From positions 1 through 38,800 of the forward strand of contig JAUYJY010000033.1 of assembly GCA_030699205.1 (NCBI GenBank): DNA of 38,800 nucleotides. Direction: 5' to 3'. Shown piece by piece: positions 1 through 37,207 of this stretch (positions are counted from its first letter, which is position 1; every line of letters starts with the position of its first letter). Source of the stretch: Candidatus Pacearchaeota archaeon (GTDB lineage Archaea; Nanobdellota; Nanobdellia; Pacearchaeales; GW2011-AR1). The notes under the pieces are model-generated. The model ran no database searches. It had not been told where the DNA came from and saw nothing but the letters and a program-made list of their open reading frames with translations. The position numbers and the translations under genes are program-made.

Positions 1-57
1 CAGAATTCTCTATCTGTACAATTCTGAAAACAATTGTGCTAATCAACAGAATTGTCC

Positions 58-134
58 ATATTTTGAACAGTTTTTTGTTCTTCCGCTAATAGTCTAAGAC
101 AAATACCTTTCAATTATAAATGTCTTAGACTATA
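58..134 (-). repeat. MITE-like 93-bp repeat, copy 1 (one end diverged or lost)
   Basis: Contains TAGTCTAAGACA...TGTCTTAGACTA stem and TTAGCGGAAGAACAAAAAACTGTTCAAAATAT on the minus strand; the TTTTGTCTTCTGCTATA end is missing. Confidence 0.9.
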
Positions 135-7038: not shown

Positions 7039-7464
7039 ATGCGTAAAGATTCTATGAAAAAGGGCAATTTATTTTTATGGCTTTTTGTTTTTATGTTTTT
7101 TATCGGATTTATTGAAATTGCATCAGCCCATGATTCTTCCTACGGCAGTGAATATGGTGGAATTGAGTATGGAAGCTATTCCGCATTCTATAATGATTAT
7201 TATTCAAATAGAATTCCCCCAAACAGAATGTCAGATTATTTTAATTATGGCGGATATTGGCAGAACCCAAACTATTGGAAGGAATACCGAAATAAAAAAT
7301 GGGGCAGTGTTGAGGTAAACAACTACTATATTGAAAATAATTATTATTTCAATAACTATCCCGAAAGAAAATATTCAAATGTGGGCAAAACATATTCCAC
7401 GCCCGTTATGAGGAACAACATGATAATTGATTGCGGAAAGAACTGGAATTATCGCTTGTGTTAA
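7039..7464 (+). CDS. predicted secreted Tyr/Asn-rich protein
   Basis: Signal-peptide-like MKKGNLFLWLFVFMFFIGFIEIASA followed by Tyr/Asn/Gly-rich sequence; only two Cys, both at the C-terminus (CGKNWNYRLC). Confidence 0.65.
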   Translation: MRKDSMKKGNLFLWLFVFMFFIGFIEIASAHDSSYGSEYGGIEYGSYSAFYNDYYSNRIPPNRMSDYFNYGGYWQNPNYWKEYRNKKWGSVEVNNYYIENNYYFNNYPERKYSNVGKTYSTPVMRNNMIIDCGKNWNYRLC

Positions 7465-7519: not shown

Positions 7520-7612
7520 TATAGCAGAAGACAAAATATTTTGAACAGTTTTTTGTTCTTCCGCTAATAGTCTAAGACAAATACTGTTCAATTATAAATG
7601 TCTTAGACTATA
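7520..7612 (-). repeat. MITE-like 93-bp repeat, copy 2
   Basis: Full-length; TATAGCAGAAGACAAAATATTTTGAACAG...GTCTTAGACTATA. Confidence 0.93.
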
Positions 7613-7646: not shown

Positions 7647-8591
7647 ATGAGAATTAGATATGATTTTTCAAGTAGAAGAACAAGAAGGATAGACCCGCAT
7701 AACAAACATAAACGTGATTTTTTTACTCTTGGAAAAGAGGTTATATTGGTTTCAGATATAATTCTTGAAGTCTTAGATGCAAGATTTATTGGAAGAACTA
7801 GAAATAAGAAAATAGAAGAAATCATTTTATTAAAGGGGAAGAAGATTATCCATGTAATTAATAAAAGTGATTTGGTAAATGTGAAAGAACTTCGTGGCTC
7901 TGAAGAAATTAAGGATTTTGAAAATTGTGTTTTTGTTTCATCAACAAAAAAGACTGGAGGGAAGAGATTGAGAGATAGAATAAAGATTATTGCAAAAAGG
8001 TTGATTAAAGAAAGACTTAAAGACGGAACTGATGAAAAAGAAATTAATGAGAAGAGAGATACGGAGAAACTGACTAAATATAGGCACGGGGAGGGCTTTA
8101 AAAACTTCTTGAAAACAGGTAAGGAAATTCATGTAGGAGTCATAGGCTACCCAAATACCGGAAAAAGTTCTTTGATAAATTTATTAGCAGGAAGCGGTTC
8201 TGCAAAAGTATCGGCGAGGTCGGGATTTACAAAGGGGATTCATAAAATAAAATTGTCAGATGATATTATTTTGCTCGATACTCCCGGAATAATTACTGAA
8301 GAAGACGCTTCATCAGTTCAGGCGAAGAGGCTTGCACATCATTCTATTATTGGTTCAAGGACTTACGACACTGTGAAATCCCCTGATTTTATTATTGCAG
8401 AAATAATGAAACAATATCCCAATTTATTAGAAAAATATTATGAAATCCCTGCAGAAGGTGACTCTGAATTGCTTTTAGAAGAATTAGGAAAAAGATGGAG
8501 TTTTTTGAAGAAAAAGGGCTTAATTGATTTGGATAGAACAGCAAGAAAGGTTCTGAAAGAATGGCAAGAGGGGAAAATAAAGGTCATTTAA
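7647..8591 (+). CDS. circularly permuted GTPase (YlqF/RbgA/Nog2-like)
   Basis: Permuted motif order: G4 NKSD, then G1 GYPNTGKSS, then G3 DTPG. Confidence 0.92.
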   Translation: MRIRYDFSSRRTRRIDPHNKHKRDFFTLGKEVILVSDIILEVLDARFIGRTRNKKIEEIILLKGKKIIHVINKSDLVNVKELRGSEEIKDFENCVFVSSTKKTGGKRLRDRIKIIAKRLIKERLKDGTDEKEINEKRDTEKLTKYRHGEGFKNFLKTGKEIHVGVIGYPNTGKSSLINLLAGSGSAKVSARSGFTKGIHKIKLSDDIILLDTPGIITEEDASSVQAKRLAHHSIIGSRTYDTVKSPDFIIAEIMKQYPNLLEKYYEIPAEGDSELLLEELGKRWSFLKKKGLIDLDRTARKVLKEWQEGKIKVI

Positions 8592-22059: not shown

Positions 22060-22152
22060 TATAGTCTAAGACATTTATAATTGAAATGTATTTGTCTTAA
22101 ACTATTAGCGGAAGAACAAAAAACTGTTCAAAATATTTTGTCTTCTGCTATA
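22060..22152 (+). repeat. MITE-like 93-bp repeat, copy 3
   Basis: TATAGTCTAAGACA...TGTCTTAAACTATTAGCGGAAG...TCTTCTGCTATA. Confidence 0.93.
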
Positions 22153-22168
22153 CCCTTGGATTTCTACT

Positions 22169-23449
22169 TTATTTCTTGCCGATAAATTTCTTGCCGTCCA
22201 TGTAAGGAATCAAAACATCAGGAATCTTTATTGTTCCGTCTTTTTGCTGACAATTTTCAAGAATTGCAACCATTGCACGCGAAGTTGCAATAGCCGTATT
22301 ATTCAAAGTATGCACAAATCTTCTTTCGCCCTTATCATTAAAATATTTTATATTTAATCTTCTTGCCTGTGCTTCTTCCATATTTGTTACCGAGCCAATT
22401 TCATTATACTCATTAGTTCTTGGGCGCCAGAATTCTAAATCTGCACCCTTCGCTTTTAAATCTCCTAAATCTGCCGAACAGGATTCATATTCTCTTATTG
22501 GAATCTTTAGTTTTTTAAATAACTCTTTTGATAAATCCATTAATTCTTTATAATACTTGTAAGAATCTTTTGGCTCGCAGATAACTACCATTTCTTGTTT
22601 ATTAAACTGGTGCGTTCTAAAAAGACCTTTCTCATCAATGCCGTGAGAACCAATTTCTTTTCTAAAACACATTGAATATGCAGTTAATTTTAATGGTAAA
22701 TCCTTGTGGTTTAATGTTTTCCCAATAAACATCCCAATCACTGGATGTTCTGATGTTGCAATTAAATATAAATCCTCTCCCTCAATCTTATAGGACATTG
22801 CATCTATTTCAGATTTAGAGTATACCCCTTCTAAAACTTTTTTTCTAATCATCAGTGGTGGCTCTATATACTCATATCCTTTTGAAACCATAAAATCTCT
22901 TGAATAATTTATTAAGGCCTGATTTAACAAAGCTAAATCATTTTTTAGAATATAAAAACCATTTCCAGTAATTTCTGCAGAAGTTTCAAAATCAGCAAGA
23001 CCTAATTCCTCAGCTAATTCTGTATGATTTTTTATGGAAAAATCAAATTTTTTAGGAATTCCGATAACCTCGCGAACAACATTATCCTTTGCAGATTTTC
23101 CGATAGGAACAGATTCATGCAAAATAGTTGGTATTTGTTTTAGTAAACTATCAATAGATTCTTTTAATCTTCTTTCTTTTTCTTCAACCCTAGCAATTTC
23201 CTGGGGAATTTGTTTGGCTTTTTTCAGAAGGTTTTTATCATTCGCCCTTTCTTTTTTAGCTTCTGAAATTTGTTTTGACAAAACATTCCTTTCAGCCCTT
23301 AGAGAATCAATTTCTGACTTTAATTTTCTCCACTTTTCATCTTTTTTTATGATTTCTTCTAAAACTTTTAACTTCTCATCTTGAAATTTCTTTTTTATGT
23401 TTTTTCGGATTAAATCCGGGTTTTGCCTAATTAAACTTATGTCTATCAT
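22169..23449 (-). CDS. serS: seryl-tRNA synthetase
   Basis: MIDISLIRQNPDLIRKN coiled-coil N-terminus; MCFRKEIGSHGIDEKGLFRTHQFNKQE; LNNTAIATSRAMVAILENCQ. Confidence 0.97.
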   Translation of the reverse strand: MIDISLIRQNPDLIRKNIKKKFQDEKLKVLEEIIKKDEKWRKLKSEIDSLRAERNVLSKQISEAKKERANDKNLLKKAKQIPQEIARVEEKERRLKESIDSLLKQIPTILHESVPIGKSAKDNVVREVIGIPKKFDFSIKNHTELAEELGLADFETSAEITGNGFYILKNDLALLNQALINYSRDFMVSKGYEYIEPPLMIRKKVLEGVYSKSEIDAMSYKIEGEDLYLIATSEHPVIGMFIGKTLNHKDLPLKLTAYSMCFRKEIGSHGIDEKGLFRTHQFNKQEMVVICEPKDSYKYYKELMDLSKELFKKLKIPIREYESCSADLGDLKAKGADLEFWRPRTNEYNEIGSVTNMEEAQARRLNIKYFNDKGERRFVHTLNNTAIATSRAMVAILENCQQKDGTIKIPDVLIPYMDGKKFIGKK

Positions 23450-23529
23450 ATCTTAAATTAGTGAGGTGATTATTTAAAATTAATGAGTGAGCTAAAAGAT
23501 TAGATTTTGTGATTAGTGGAAAAACTTAC

Positions 23530-23622
23530 TATAGTCTAAGACATTTATAATTGAAAGGTATTTGTCTTAGACTATTAGCGGAAGAACAAAAAACTGTTCA
23601 AAATATTTTGTCTTCTGCTATA
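23530..23622 (+). repeat. MITE-like 93-bp repeat, copy 4
   Basis: Full-length copy with TATAG/CTATA ends. Confidence 0.95.
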
Positions 23623-23683
23623 ACCTATTTTCACAGCACCAATACATTAAAGCACACAATCAATAATTATAAAATAACCCAAA

Positions 23684-23776
23684 TATAGTCTAAGACATTT
23701 ATAATTGAAAGGTATTTGTCTTAGACTATTAGCTGAAGAACAAAAAACTGTTCAAAATATTTTGTCTTCTGCTATA
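23684..23776 (+). repeat. MITE-like 93-bp repeat, copy 5
   Basis: Full-length copy; differs from copy 4 by AGCTGAAG versus AGCGGAAG. Confidence 0.95.
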
Positions 23777-23911
23777 TTACCAGATATTAATCTAACTTAG
23801 TATCTAAAAATATGGGTTCACTCCACAATGTAATATAATCAAATTGATAGTATTTTAATGTGCTTGGTGGGAATTGGTATATTTTATAAATCATAAATTC
23901 TTTAAAGTTTT

Positions 23912-24550
23912 ATGGTGATGGAGGAGATAATATTGTCTTTTGTAGGTGCATATAATTTACTCATTGCAAGCGTACCTACACAATATTCCGGATTGATTAA
24001 CATATTTGTTTTCGCATTATTGCTTTCTCTTTATTCTATTTTTACATGGAAATTTTATCGGTTCCTTTCTAAGAAAGACTTAATTGAATTAAACCTTTTT
24101 GAATACAACCGCCTTACACACCCATTTCTTAAGAAATTGTTGGCAATAGCCCTTTATTTAATTGAATACATAATTATTCTTCCATTTCTAATTTTCTTCT
24201 GGTTCGGAATTTTAGCGTTGCTAATTCTGATACTATCCGAAAGCCTTAGTATTCATCAGGTAATTGTTGTTTCTGCAGCAATGATTGCGGCAATAAGAAT
24301 GCTTTCTTATTACGAAGAAGATTTATCAAGAGACCTTGCAAAAATGTTTCCATTTACCATTCTTGCTATTTTTATTTTAAATCCTAATTTCTTCTCTTTG
24401 GAAAGAATTCTTACTAACCTTATAGCTCTCCCAGAATTAGTTGGAAGCATCTTTTACTTTTTAATTTTGATAATCGGTCTTGAAGTAATTTTAAGAATTA
24501 TTGATGTAATCAGAAACCTTGCGATTAGCAGACGGGGAGAAAAGAAATAA
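23912..24550 (+). CDS. multi-TM hypothetical membrane protein
   Basis: 212-aa ORF with several hydrophobic segments. Confidence 0.65.
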   Translation: MVMEEIILSFVGAYNLLIASVPTQYSGLINIFVFALLLSLYSIFTWKFYRFLSKKDLIELNLFEYNRLTHPFLKKLLAIALYLIEYIIILPFLIFFWFGILALLILILSESLSIHQVIVVSAAMIAAIRMLSYYEEDLSRDLAKMFPFTILAIFILNPNFFSLERILTNLIALPELVGSIFYFLILIIGLEVILRIIDVIRNLAISRRGEKK

Positions 24551-24568
24551 GAAAGCGAATAGATATTC

Positions 24569-26263
24569 CTATTCATTGCGTGGGTGGTGCCCGTGAGAAA
24601 TTCTTTCTCCAAATTCTTTCAATTGTTTCTTACCTTCTTTTCTTATTTCTTTTTTCTCAAAATTATCTTTTACTAAAAGATGTGCCATAAAATCCCCCCC
24701 AAGGAAGCTGGGCATAATAACATAATCTGCACCCTCTTCATATAACTTGATGCTCTCTTCCATTCTCTTAGAAGTTGGTATAAAAAGAACATTCTTATTT
24801 TTTATTTCTCTTAAAATTTTAATATTTGTTTCTAAATCTGATATTGTTGAAATTATAATTTCTGCTTTTCTTAATCTTAATTCATTTAGAAATTCAGAAT
24901 CATTCACATCACCATAAGCACAATTAATTCCCCTTTTAGAAAGTTTATTTATAATATCTGGATTGAAATCTATAACTAAATATTTCTTTCTTGCTTTATT
25001 AAACGCTTTTAATAAGTTAAACCCTAAATGGCCATACCCCATTAAAATCACATCATAATCTTTGTTTTTGGCAGCCGTGCCAAGTTCTTTCTTTTTTCCA
25101 TCAAATATATTCAGCAAATTCTTTATTTTATTATAAATTGGATTTGAATAATAAACCATATAGCTGCTCAAGGCGATAGTTATTAGTGCCACTAAAATTG
25201 AAAGAGAAAGTATTTCCTGTTTCAAAACACCCATAGTTGCTCCAAGCAAAATCAGAATTAATGAAAATTCGCTTATTTGTGCAAGTAAAATTCCTGTATG
25301 AAATCCCACTTTCTTTTTATATCCAAAGAACTTCATTAAAGTCATTACAATTATTGGATTCCCCACCAATACAAAAATAGAGAATGCAAATGCCTTTGTA
25401 ATTAATCCCAAAGATAAAGGACCTATAAGTTTAGAGCCAAAAAATACAAAAAACAACACCACAAAGAAATCTCTTATCCCTGTGATTTTACCCTTTATCT
25501 CAAGATTATATTTTGATGATGCAAGTGCCATCCCCGCCAATAATGCCCCAATTTCAATTGAAAATCCCAACCCCTCAAAAGCTATTGCTACTATTAGTGT
25601 CCACGCAACGCTAAATAAGAATAAAATTTCCTGATTTCTCGCAGCCAATCCAACAATTTTATGAAGAATGAAATATGAGATTAAAAAAACTCCTGCAATT
25701 GCAATCGCACCCTTAATAAGCTGAATGAAAATTAAAGATATGTCTCCACCCCCTAAAACTGGAACTAACATCAATGCAATTGCTGCAACAAAGTCCTGAA
25801 CAATTAAAACACCTATTCCTATTTTTCCATGTAGTGTATCTAATTCTTTTTTATCTGAGAGAAGTTTTACAGCAACAACTGTCGATGAAAACGCAAGACC
25901 TGCTGCAATGTATAATGCGGGAATTGATGAAAATCCAAATCCGATAGCAATTAAAAATCCTATGGACGCCGTAACTAATATCTGCCCCAATCCAACTCCG
26001 AGAGCAACACCCCCAACATCCTTTAAGACCCTAAAATCCAAATTTAAACCAACGATAAATAATAAGAAAGTGACTCCCATCCTCGCTAATGCCTGAACCA
26101 AATCTGTAGAACTTAACAAATTTAATGCAAATGGCCCGACTAAAATTCCTGTAATCAGATATGCAATTATAGGGGGCTGTTTTATTGCTCTTCCAAATAA
26201 ACTTAGAACTGCCGCCAATCCAATAATAACCCCAATTTCTATAATTATACTTTCCATCTGCAA
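24569..26263 (-). CDS. CPA2-type (Kef-like) cation:proton antiporter with TrkA-N domain
   Basis: GRAIKQPPIIAYLITGILVGP, LAFSSTVVAVKLLSDK and TrkA-N DVILMGYGHLGFNLLKAFNKARKKYLVIDFNP. Confidence 0.93.
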   Translation of the reverse strand: MQMESIIIEIGVIIGLAAVLSLFGRAIKQPPIIAYLITGILVGPFALNLLSSTDLVQALARMGVTFLLFIVGLNLDFRVLKDVGGVALGVGLGQILVTASIGFLIAIGFGFSSIPALYIAAGLAFSSTVVAVKLLSDKKELDTLHGKIGIGVLIVQDFVAAIALMLVPVLGGGDISLIFIQLIKGAIAIAGVFLISYFILHKIVGLAARNQEILFLFSVAWTLIVAIAFEGLGFSIEIGALLAGMALASSKYNLEIKGKITGIRDFFVVLFFVFFGSKLIGPLSLGLITKAFAFSIFVLVGNPIIVMTLMKFFGYKKKVGFHTGILLAQISEFSLILILLGATMGVLKQEILSLSILVALITIALSSYMVYYSNPIYNKIKNLLNIFDGKKKELGTAAKNKDYDVILMGYGHLGFNLLKAFNKARKKYLVIDFNPDIINKLSKRGINCAYGDVNDSEFLNELRLRKAEIIISTISDLETNIKILREIKNKNVLFIPTSKRMEESIKLYEEGADYVIMPSFLGGDFMAHLLVKDNFEKKEIRKEGKKQLKEFGERISHGHHPRNE

Positions 26264-26315
26264 ACCTCTTTTTCTCTCTTTAAAAGAATAAAAACAATTT
26301 TAAATATGTTCCCAT

Positions 26316-26564
26316 TTAGGAAAGTTTCTTCTTATAAACTGCAATGTAAAATACAATAGCCCCTAATATTCCTGTGAAAATAGTTATTATCAGATGGAAA
26401 GTATTCTTCATAATTCCCTCCAAGTAAATCATTCTTATCCAAAAAGTCAATCCCGACCCTATTGCTCCAATTATTGAGACGTAGAATATGAAGAAAAAGA
26501 ATATCCCGAGGATGGGACTTAGGGTTTCATGATTTGTTAAAGATATGCCAATCATAGATATCAT
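26316..26564 (-). CDS. small membrane protein
   Basis: 82-aa ORF, hydrophobic helices. Confidence 0.5.
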   Translation of the reverse strand: MISMIGISLTNHETLSPILGIFFFFIFYVSIIGAIGSGLTFWIRMIYLEGIMKNTFHLIITIFTGILGAIVFYIAVYKKKLS

Positions 26565-26615
26565 AAGAATAATTATTGAAATGAGAAAAGCATAAAGATG
26601 GAATTTGCATTTCTT

Positions 26616-26756
26616 TTTATGTCGAAGTTGCTGATACAGATGAATGCAACTTAGAGCACAAGAGAATTGCTTACTCTTGCAATTCTCTGTGCAGAGAAAT
26701 CCATAAAAGATTTCTCATGCATCCAAAAGTCCCAAAACAAAACGAGAGGGACTTTT
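26616..26756. repeat. 65-bp shared head followed by three consecutive hairpins
   Basis: 26616-26680 matches 37021-37085 at 60/65; then AGAGAATTGC/GCAATTCTCT, GAGAAATC/GATTTCTC, AAAAGTCCC/GGGACTTTT. Confidence 0.8.
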
Positions 26757-26796
26757 TGATATTCCTGTTTTTCTTTTTTGCTTGAAATGTCCATAA

Positions 26797-26889
26797 TATA
26801 GTCTAAGACATTTATAATTAAACAGTATTTGTCTTAGACTATTAGCGGAAGAACAAAAAACTGTTCAAAATATTTTGTCTTCTGCTATA
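26797..26889 (+). repeat. MITE-like 93-bp repeat, copy 6
   Basis: Full-length copy with TATAG/CTATA ends. Confidence 0.95.
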
Positions 26890-36312: not shown

Positions 36313-37005
36313 ATGGGATTAATTTTGGGCATTGACGATGCAGGCAGAGGACCTCTAATTGGTCCGATGATTCTTGCAGGAGTTTTAGTCACAAAAACAC
36401 AAGAAGAAAAAATAAAAAAGGCGGGGGCAAAAGATTCAAAACTACTCCCTCATACAGAGAGAATATCTCTCTCTGAATTAATCAAAGAAAACTCAATTTC
36501 CCATAAAATCTTAGAAACCTCTGCACATGAAATAGACAATTCTCTTTCTTCTGGAACAAATCTAAATACTCTCGAGGCGTTGAAATCAGCAGAAATCATC
36601 AACGCATTAAATACAAAAAAAGACAAAATAATTGTAATTGTGGACTGCCCTTCAACAAACCTTCTTGCATGGAAAAATACTTTAATAAGTTTTATAGAAC
36701 ACAAAGAAAATCTAAAAATAAAATGCGAACACAAAGCAGATTTTAATCATCCATCTGTTTCTGCAGCTTCAATTCTTGCAAAAGTAAAAAGAGAGGAAGC
36801 AGTATCTGTCTTAAAAAAACAATACGGAAACATCGGCTCTGGATACCCCTCAGACCCAATAACCATCAAATTCTTAAAAGAAAACGGGGAAAAATATAAA
36901 GATTCAGGAATATTCAGAAAATCATGGTCTACATGGAAGAAAATCTTTCCAGAAGATTCTTTGCAATTTCAGGGAAATAAATTTAAACAGCAAAAATTAT
37001 TTTAA
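36313..37005 (+). CDS. rnhB: ribonuclease HII
   Basis: LILGIDDAGRGPLIGPMILAGVLV, AGAKDSKLL, SVSAASILAKVKRE, GSGYPSDP. Confidence 0.96.
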   Translation: MGLILGIDDAGRGPLIGPMILAGVLVTKTQEEKIKKAGAKDSKLLPHTERISLSELIKENSISHKILETSAHEIDNSLSSGTNLNTLEALKSAEIINALNTKKDKIIVIVDCPSTNLLAWKNTLISFIEHKENLKIKCEHKADFNHPSVSAASILAKVKREEAVSVLKKQYGNIGSGYPSDPITIKFLKENGEKYKDSGIFRKSWSTWKKIFPEDSLQFQGNKFKQQKLF

Positions 37006-37020
37006 AATTTTCTTCAATTT

Positions 37021-37207
37021 TTTATGTCGAAGTTGCTGATGCAGATGAATGCAGCTTTGAGCACAAGAGAATTACTTACCCTTGCCCAAAATTTCAAGAC
37101 GAAACATCTGCATTTAACGAAGTTTGATTTTCCCTCGTGAAGCGAAGCGGAACAGGGCTGGAAAATCAAATTTGGAGAAATGGCGAGCCGAGCCATTTCT
37201 CGTTAAA
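37021..37207. repeat. 65-bp shared head followed by three-way-junction-like inverted repeats
   Basis: 37021-37085 matches 26616-26680; TTTAACGA/TCGTTAAA enclosing TTTGATTTTCC/GGAAAATCAAA and GAGAAATGGC/GCCATTTCTC. Confidence 0.8.

Follow-up and report, generated by a model that had tools for sequence, protein, structure and literature searches.

The window analyzed here is a complete 38,800-nucleotide contig (C8; JAUYJY010000033.1) of the Candidatus Pacearchaeota archaeon genome G000 (GCA_030699205.1; 927 kb in 68 contigs, 85.7% complete). It carries five full copies of a 93-bp double-hairpin repeat, referred to here as the 93-mer, which is very probably a miniature inverted-repeat transposable element (MITE) mobilised in trans by an IS630-family (Tc1/mariner-type DDE) transposase. 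These copies are 97 to 100% identical to the consensus and differ in a loop dinucleotide haplotype. The copy at 7520..7612 (-) has haplotype CA and lies between the open reading frames (ORFs) 7039-7464 (+) and 7647-8591 (+). The copy at 22060..22152 (+), of haplotype AT and with one stem base changed (TTAAACTA), lies 17 bases past the stop codon of ORF 22169-23449 (-), named as seryl-tRNA synthetase-like by sequence reading. Upstream of that ORF stands a copy with the consensus sequence and haplotype AG (23530..23622, +), followed 61 bases further on by a second AG copy (23684..23776, +), while the last full copy, of haplotype CA, occupies 26797..26889 (+). A preliminary description of this DNA had listed these five places and a sixth, at 58-134 (-), and direct checking located the repeat at all six. 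The sixth is nevertheless not a partial 93-mer but belongs to a 186-bp long form, whose first 77 bases it comprises. The window holds the first 134 bases of this form (1..134, -; 100% identical to positions 1-134 of the long consensus) before the contig start cuts it off. The same description spoke of a six-copy family, a number that fits the window but not the genome, which contains at least 96 left ends.

Across G000, where we directly read the sequence around the copies and at contig ends (about 318 kb), we counted 96 left and 109 right ends. The full copies comprise at least 59 short ones and 16 of 186 bp, the latter defining the long form. Chance is excluded as the source of these counts, since the right-end 15-mer pattern matched the genome 137 times against 12 for its reversed control and the left-end 14-mer pattern 243 times against 26. 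Two further long copies are broken up by an inserted short copy, and 44 contig ends fall inside or at a long copy. The assembly is therefore fragmented by the element itself, and the long-form counts are minima. The load amounts to a copy every 10 kb or less, likewise a minimum density, set by those contig ends that were read. Short copies differ from each other at a mean of ∼1.2% per site outside the two loop bases. The 93 bp by which the long form exceeds the short one lie between two ATAT repeats, and the short form would most simply have arisen by internal deletion.

The two halves of the 93-mer are related to each other as inverted repeats. When the left half is compared with the reverse complement of the right half, terminal inverted repeats (TIRs) of ∼27 bp can be aligned with 17 of 27 positions identical (TATAGTCTAAGACATTTATAATTGAAC versus TATAGCAGAAGACAAAATATTTTGAAC), and elements of relatives give matches of 16 to 22 of 27. 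The inverted repeat described earlier as 14 bp long is thus real but longer. Each TIR is accompanied by an inner arm that can pair with the outer bases of the same TIR; accordingly, both the sequence and the predicted fold give one hairpin at each end. In the copy at 23530..23622, the left hairpin module, A, comprises the left TIR (first 26 to 27 bases) and its inner arm (23530..23575, +, from the fold), and the right module, R1, comprises the inner arm and the right TIR (23576..23622, +; reverse complement TATAGCAGAAGACAAAATATTTTGAACAG), as judged from the fold and the TIR comparison. The left-hairpin arm, initially taken to be perfect, is not so throughout, as the changed base of copy 22060 illustrates. 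Folding predicts two hairpins with −33.5 kcal/mol (z = −8.3 versus dinucleotide shuffles), and for some relatives' elements both an end-to-end and a two-hairpin fold are possible. In an arm-swap test over many genomes, own arms paired better than foreign ones (left, 10.6 versus 8.2; right, 7.8 versus 5.7), and none of 20,000 permutations reached the observed value, although this is no clean probability because the elements are related by descent. The test nevertheless shows that the two arms of a hairpin change in concert. A kissing interaction between the two loops was also examined and rejected: loop complementarity did exceed that of swapped pairs (45 of 20,000 permutations reached the observed value), but this is a consequence of the inverted-repeat relationship of the halves.

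The repeat bears clear marks of mobility. Of 71 readable copies, 70 start with TATAG and 67 end with CTATA, in agreement with the TA-bounded ends first proposed, and the flanks show only a weak preference beyond TA. Empty sites contain a single TA and filled ones TA..TA. The copy at C59:9301-9393 (..TTCTTTAA[TA..TA]CCTCC..), for example, has empty relatives at C62 418-496, C21 and C3, and additional filled and empty pairs were recognized by eye at C11:14984, within a C-type element (see below), and at C4:4108 versus the C51 repeat. At C30 and C59, 93-mers are nested in long elements whose other copies have the same site intact, and at C20:16626 a 93-mer sits exactly between both hairpins of an old and diverged representative of this kind of element. 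With flanks rejoined, ORFs of ≥120 amino acids hold only 2 of the 62 insertions, compared to 356 of 600 random TA sites (59%). One of these two splits a HATPase-domain ORF, the second half of which aligns with the part of the HATPase_c profile expected for it, scoring below the curated cut-off. No copy of the repeat was found in either of the two congeners searched. Together with the empty sites, which the preliminary description had named as a check, this absence from both congeners bears out its view of the repeat as a MITE-like mobile element.

Which enzyme moves the repeat is suggested by its relatives. Genome G024 (Ca. Pacearchaeota archaeon CG10_big_fil_rev_8_21_14_0_10_32_14), from the same family as the window genome, contains a 1,071-bp IS630 element (C18:6152-7222) that is flanked by TA and has matching TIRs on either side (left, TATAGCCTAAGACATTAATTATTCCCC; right, TATAGCTAAGGACGTAAGTATTTCCCC). 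It shares with the 93-mer these TA flanks and the outer TIR TATAGYCTAAGACATTnAT, but is of the autonomous type, lacks inner arms and has the inner box TTCCCC instead of TTGAAC. Its transposase matches the IS630 family model NF033545 with 207 bits (cut-off, 100) and PF13358, and weakly resembles Sleeping Beauty in the PDB. The gene is distributed over two frames across an A9 run, split at GGAAAAAAAAATTTGG, owing either to programmed frameshifting or to breakage of this copy. Several IS630 copies in G153 have the same right end as the G024 element. In G026, the end of an IS630 relic (TATAGTCTTGGACTTAAATAACTGAAC) agrees with the left TIR of the 93-mer at 21 of 27 positions; beyond TATAG the match is 16 of 22, and 1 of 1,608 other TATAG sites is as good. 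The same relic end matches the left TIR of G026's own MITE (TATAGTCAAGGACTTTAATAATTGAACAG) at 24 of 29 positions, sharing GGACTTnAATAAnTGAACA.

The distribution of the two kinds of element points in the same direction. Among 200 genomes of the order, 15 contained the end pattern TATAGTCAANGACATTNAT (≤1 mismatch), and these belong to nine genera, all in the window's family; its reversed control gave four matches in total. The carriers that were opened contain mostly compact double-hairpin elements, such as the 73-bp element of G112 (left end, TATAGTCAACGACATTAATATTTCCCT; right end, TATAGTGAAAGACATAAGTCTTTCCCT). Exact-pattern scans for the left end in GTDB contigs and IMG/VR gave no match, in a search that may omit the window's own genome. 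Within the family, IS630 genes are scarce, occurring in 9 of 181 genomes by profile and additionally in G153 by BLAST; they are present in 6 of 15 MITE carriers but in 4 of 166 others (Fisher p = 2e-5). For the IS630 gene of G083, no matching ends were found. The sole IS630 gene of G000 itself (C46:4613-5526) is frameshifted and TA-flanked, and its ends (GAATCCGAACATTTTAA) are unrelated to those of the MITE, which rules it out as the mobiliser. The earlier statement that no transposase with the 93-mer ends lies in the window is thus correct and extends to the assembled genome, and the suggestion of a Tc1/mariner- or IS630-like TA target is supported by the TA empty sites and by the IS630 TIRs of G024, G153 and the G026 relic. 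Candidates for the autonomous element that was to be looked for are present in relatives, as IS630 elements with the same type of TIR, their identity to the 93-mer being partial.

According to the mechanism we propose, the mobile unit is 89 bp (short form) or 182 bp (long form), running from TAG to CTA, and inserts into TA with duplication of this dinucleotide, as the empty sites show. Its halves are inverted TIRs of ∼27 bp, each with an added inner arm that creates a hairpin. These arms may act in transposition, in tolerance of the element within transcripts or in arm-to-arm correction. The cognate IS630 transposase would have been active recently in the lineage, given the ∼1.2% difference between copies, and would now be absent, lost or unassembled in this genome. 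Several points speak against this interpretation. A 2-bp TA duplication, taken alone, is indistinguishable from insertion beside a TA without duplication. Both transposases are putative as to activity, that of G024 being read in two frames and that of G026 belonging to a relic. Identity between the 93-mer and the TIR of the intact G024 element covers only the outer ∼16 bases. Moreover, G024 was found by means of a pattern derived from the 93-mer, and therefore only its right end and its transposase constitute independent evidence. Finally, the assembled genome contains no IS630 element bearing the exact TIR of the 93-mer; since 14% of the genome is missing and the assembly is broken by repeats, there is room for the exact IS630 partner.

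An alternative that leaves the IS630-mobilised MITE in place concerns the origin of its hairpins. Template switching during replication copies one hairpin arm onto the other. The inner arms and their covariation might accordingly be a by-product of such quasipalindrome correction rather than of selection, which we regard as possible, if somewhat doubtful. It is favored by the intact G024 IS630 ends, which have no inner arms (score 5, the same as shuffled sequence), so that such arms are not required for an IS630 end. However, nearly all of the multi-copy lineages sampled have inner arms, an indication that multiplication is more successful in the hairpin forms.

The remaining alternatives replace the IS630 transposase altogether. 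A REPIN-like element, in which a domesticated Y1 transposase (RAYT) moves two inverted palindromes in the form of single-stranded DNA, would account for halves that are both palindromes and inverted copies of each other, as in REPINs (PMC3116915). The two REPIN folds would then be represented by the end-to-end and the two-hairpin ("clover") conformations. That some relatives fold both ways and that arms change together, as reported for REPINs, fits this scheme, as do the three Y1_Tnp genes of G000 and the somewhat higher frequency of Y1_Tnp in carriers (11 of 15 versus 54 of 149; p = 0.01). Nevertheless, we consider it very unlikely. The Y1 genes of G000 are bordered by GC-rich IS200-type hairpins, with no 93-mer-like palindrome adjoining at the three loci (one side only at C37), and the carriers G021, G026, G038 and G039 are not among the genomes with a Y1_Tnp match. 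Moreover, filled sites have TA on both sides and empty ones a single TA, with weak preference beyond it, and the element ends match those of IS630. Even less probable is a structured RNA gene, or a terminator or processing element, kept for a host function and spread by other means. Its highly stable folds, intergenic location and covarying stems would suit such a role, but no Rfam match rose above noise (a sub-threshold match to snR43 lies elsewhere), and there is no bias to convergent genes or to one orientation (15/15/11/10). Congeners moreover lack the repeat, which duplicates its TA target on insertion, is nested in other repeats and disrupts at least one gene. A PATE derived from IS200/IS605, in which a Y1/TnpB element would have supplied the ends and their subterminal hairpins, is scarcely credible despite the hairpins at both ends and the IS200-like genes in the genome, as the hairpins at the genome's IS200-like elements differ (CCGATGCAGAGCATCGGGG), the outer arm of the MITE extends to the very end of the element and its inverted TIRs match a DDE family.

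An IS630-mobilised MITE of this kind has known counterparts in bacteria. The repeat unit of pneumococcus (RUP) is ∼107 bp long, with ∼108 intergenic copies, TA termini and TIRs like those of IS630-Spn1, and its mobilization in trans has been proposed (PMC2229807). The 93-mer resembles RUP in size, intergenic copies, TA termini and IS630-like TIRs, and differs from it in being archaeal, in having each TIR as its own hairpin, in its two size forms and modular hairpins, and in having its cognate IS630 in relatives rather than in its own assembly. Correia TIRs also begin with TATAG. Correia/NEMIS elements of Neisseria have TIRs and TA termini and exist in >120 copies, mostly intergenic (PMC10969869, PMC2229807), with short and long forms of 107 and 155 bp (PMC2229807). 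The likeness to the 93-mer lies in these features, including the coexistence of a short and a long form; the Correia fold, however, pairs both ends, whereas each half of the 93-mer folds on itself. The Caulobacter/Brucella intergenic repeat (CIR) has a two-arm RNA fold with a linker, unusual among bacterial repeats (PMC2229807). The 93-mer shares this two-arm fold, but has the clear TIR and target site duplication that CIR lacks. REPINs consist of two inverted palindromes with two alternative folds and compensatory arm changes, in >100 copies (PMC3116915). The 93-mer shares the doublet and the compensatory changes, and differs in its TA duplication and IS630-type TIRs and in the absence here of a RAYT with these palindromes.

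Thus, IS630-moved MITEs in bacteria (RUP) and two-arm repeats (CIR, REPINs) are already known, and what is new here are the interchangeable hairpin modules, the co-changing stem arms and a hypervariable dinucleotide. No description of IS630-driven MITEs in Pacearchaeota or other DPANN archaea was found in the literature searched, which left most subscription journals outside. DPANN genomes are small and often considered short of mobile DNA. Against a size of under 1 Mb, one copy per ≤10 kb is a heavy load, and the element shapes the assembly itself. The TIR hairpins, the reuse of modules and the hypervariable dinucleotide raise the questions of why MITEs turn palindromic and how IS630 transposases recognize their ends.

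The dinucleotide, at element positions 27-28 (23556-23557, +, in the copy at 23530..23622), is located at the inner border of the TIR. These positions are off consensus in 42 and 51 of the 96 left ends, respectively, whereas the other 44 columns of the left end have a median of 1 such copy and never more than 6. Nine of the 16 dinucleotides occur (AG 38, CA 20, AT 15, CT 13, CG 6 and four singles), including all four combinations of A/C with G/T, and the mix is alike in short and long forms (p = 0.82). We detected no convincing link to flanks, strand or element form (best p = 0.035 among eleven flank positions), and no such hypervariability in those copies of the G112 73-bp element that were read. 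The ordinary reading would be that old lineage differences at the element's one free spot have been mixed by recombination. That transposition, or processing of the left hairpin, rewrites the two bases and thereby tags each new copy differently, leaving the rest of the element unchanged, is a novel but unlikely alternative.

Hairpin ends behave as interchangeable modules, found as a solo left hairpin, a solo right hairpin and new left-right combinations. Besides the hairpins of the 93-mer, G000 contains left hairpins of types C, D and E and another right hairpin, R2. The neighbor of R2 is D at C24, the A module of the 93-mer at C51:6126 and E at C59:10391-10458, while C61:3261-3412 reads D-E-R2. 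A solo left hairpin (C55:9585) and a solo right hairpin (C30:6239) are both TA-ended. New combinations probably arise by insertion into one another's terminal TAs, or into central ones, and subsequent loss. The second MITE type, built of C, D and R2 modules, showed no significant connection to IS630 elements from G020 and G023.

Other inserts and repeats were observed along the way. At G000:C37:209-709 (-), the left loop of a 93-mer contains an insert of ∼410 bp with inverted ends ACTTGANTTCGCCA and an apparent TGAA duplication, which represents a different MITE family nested in the 93-mer. A double-hairpin element at G112:C13 holds two more small hairpin inserts, GTCAAGAA..TTCTTGAC (AT repeated) and GTCAAAAGTCC..GGACTTTTTGAT, pointing to further hairpin families using AT or TA sites. 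Finally, the window contains a second dispersed repeat, GTCGAAGTTGC..GGGACTTTTTGAT, at 26614-26762 and 36997-37105. This chain of short hairpins looks like another multi-hairpin MITE and recurs at about seven more places in the DNA read (C1, C11, C39, C48, C53, C59 and C35).

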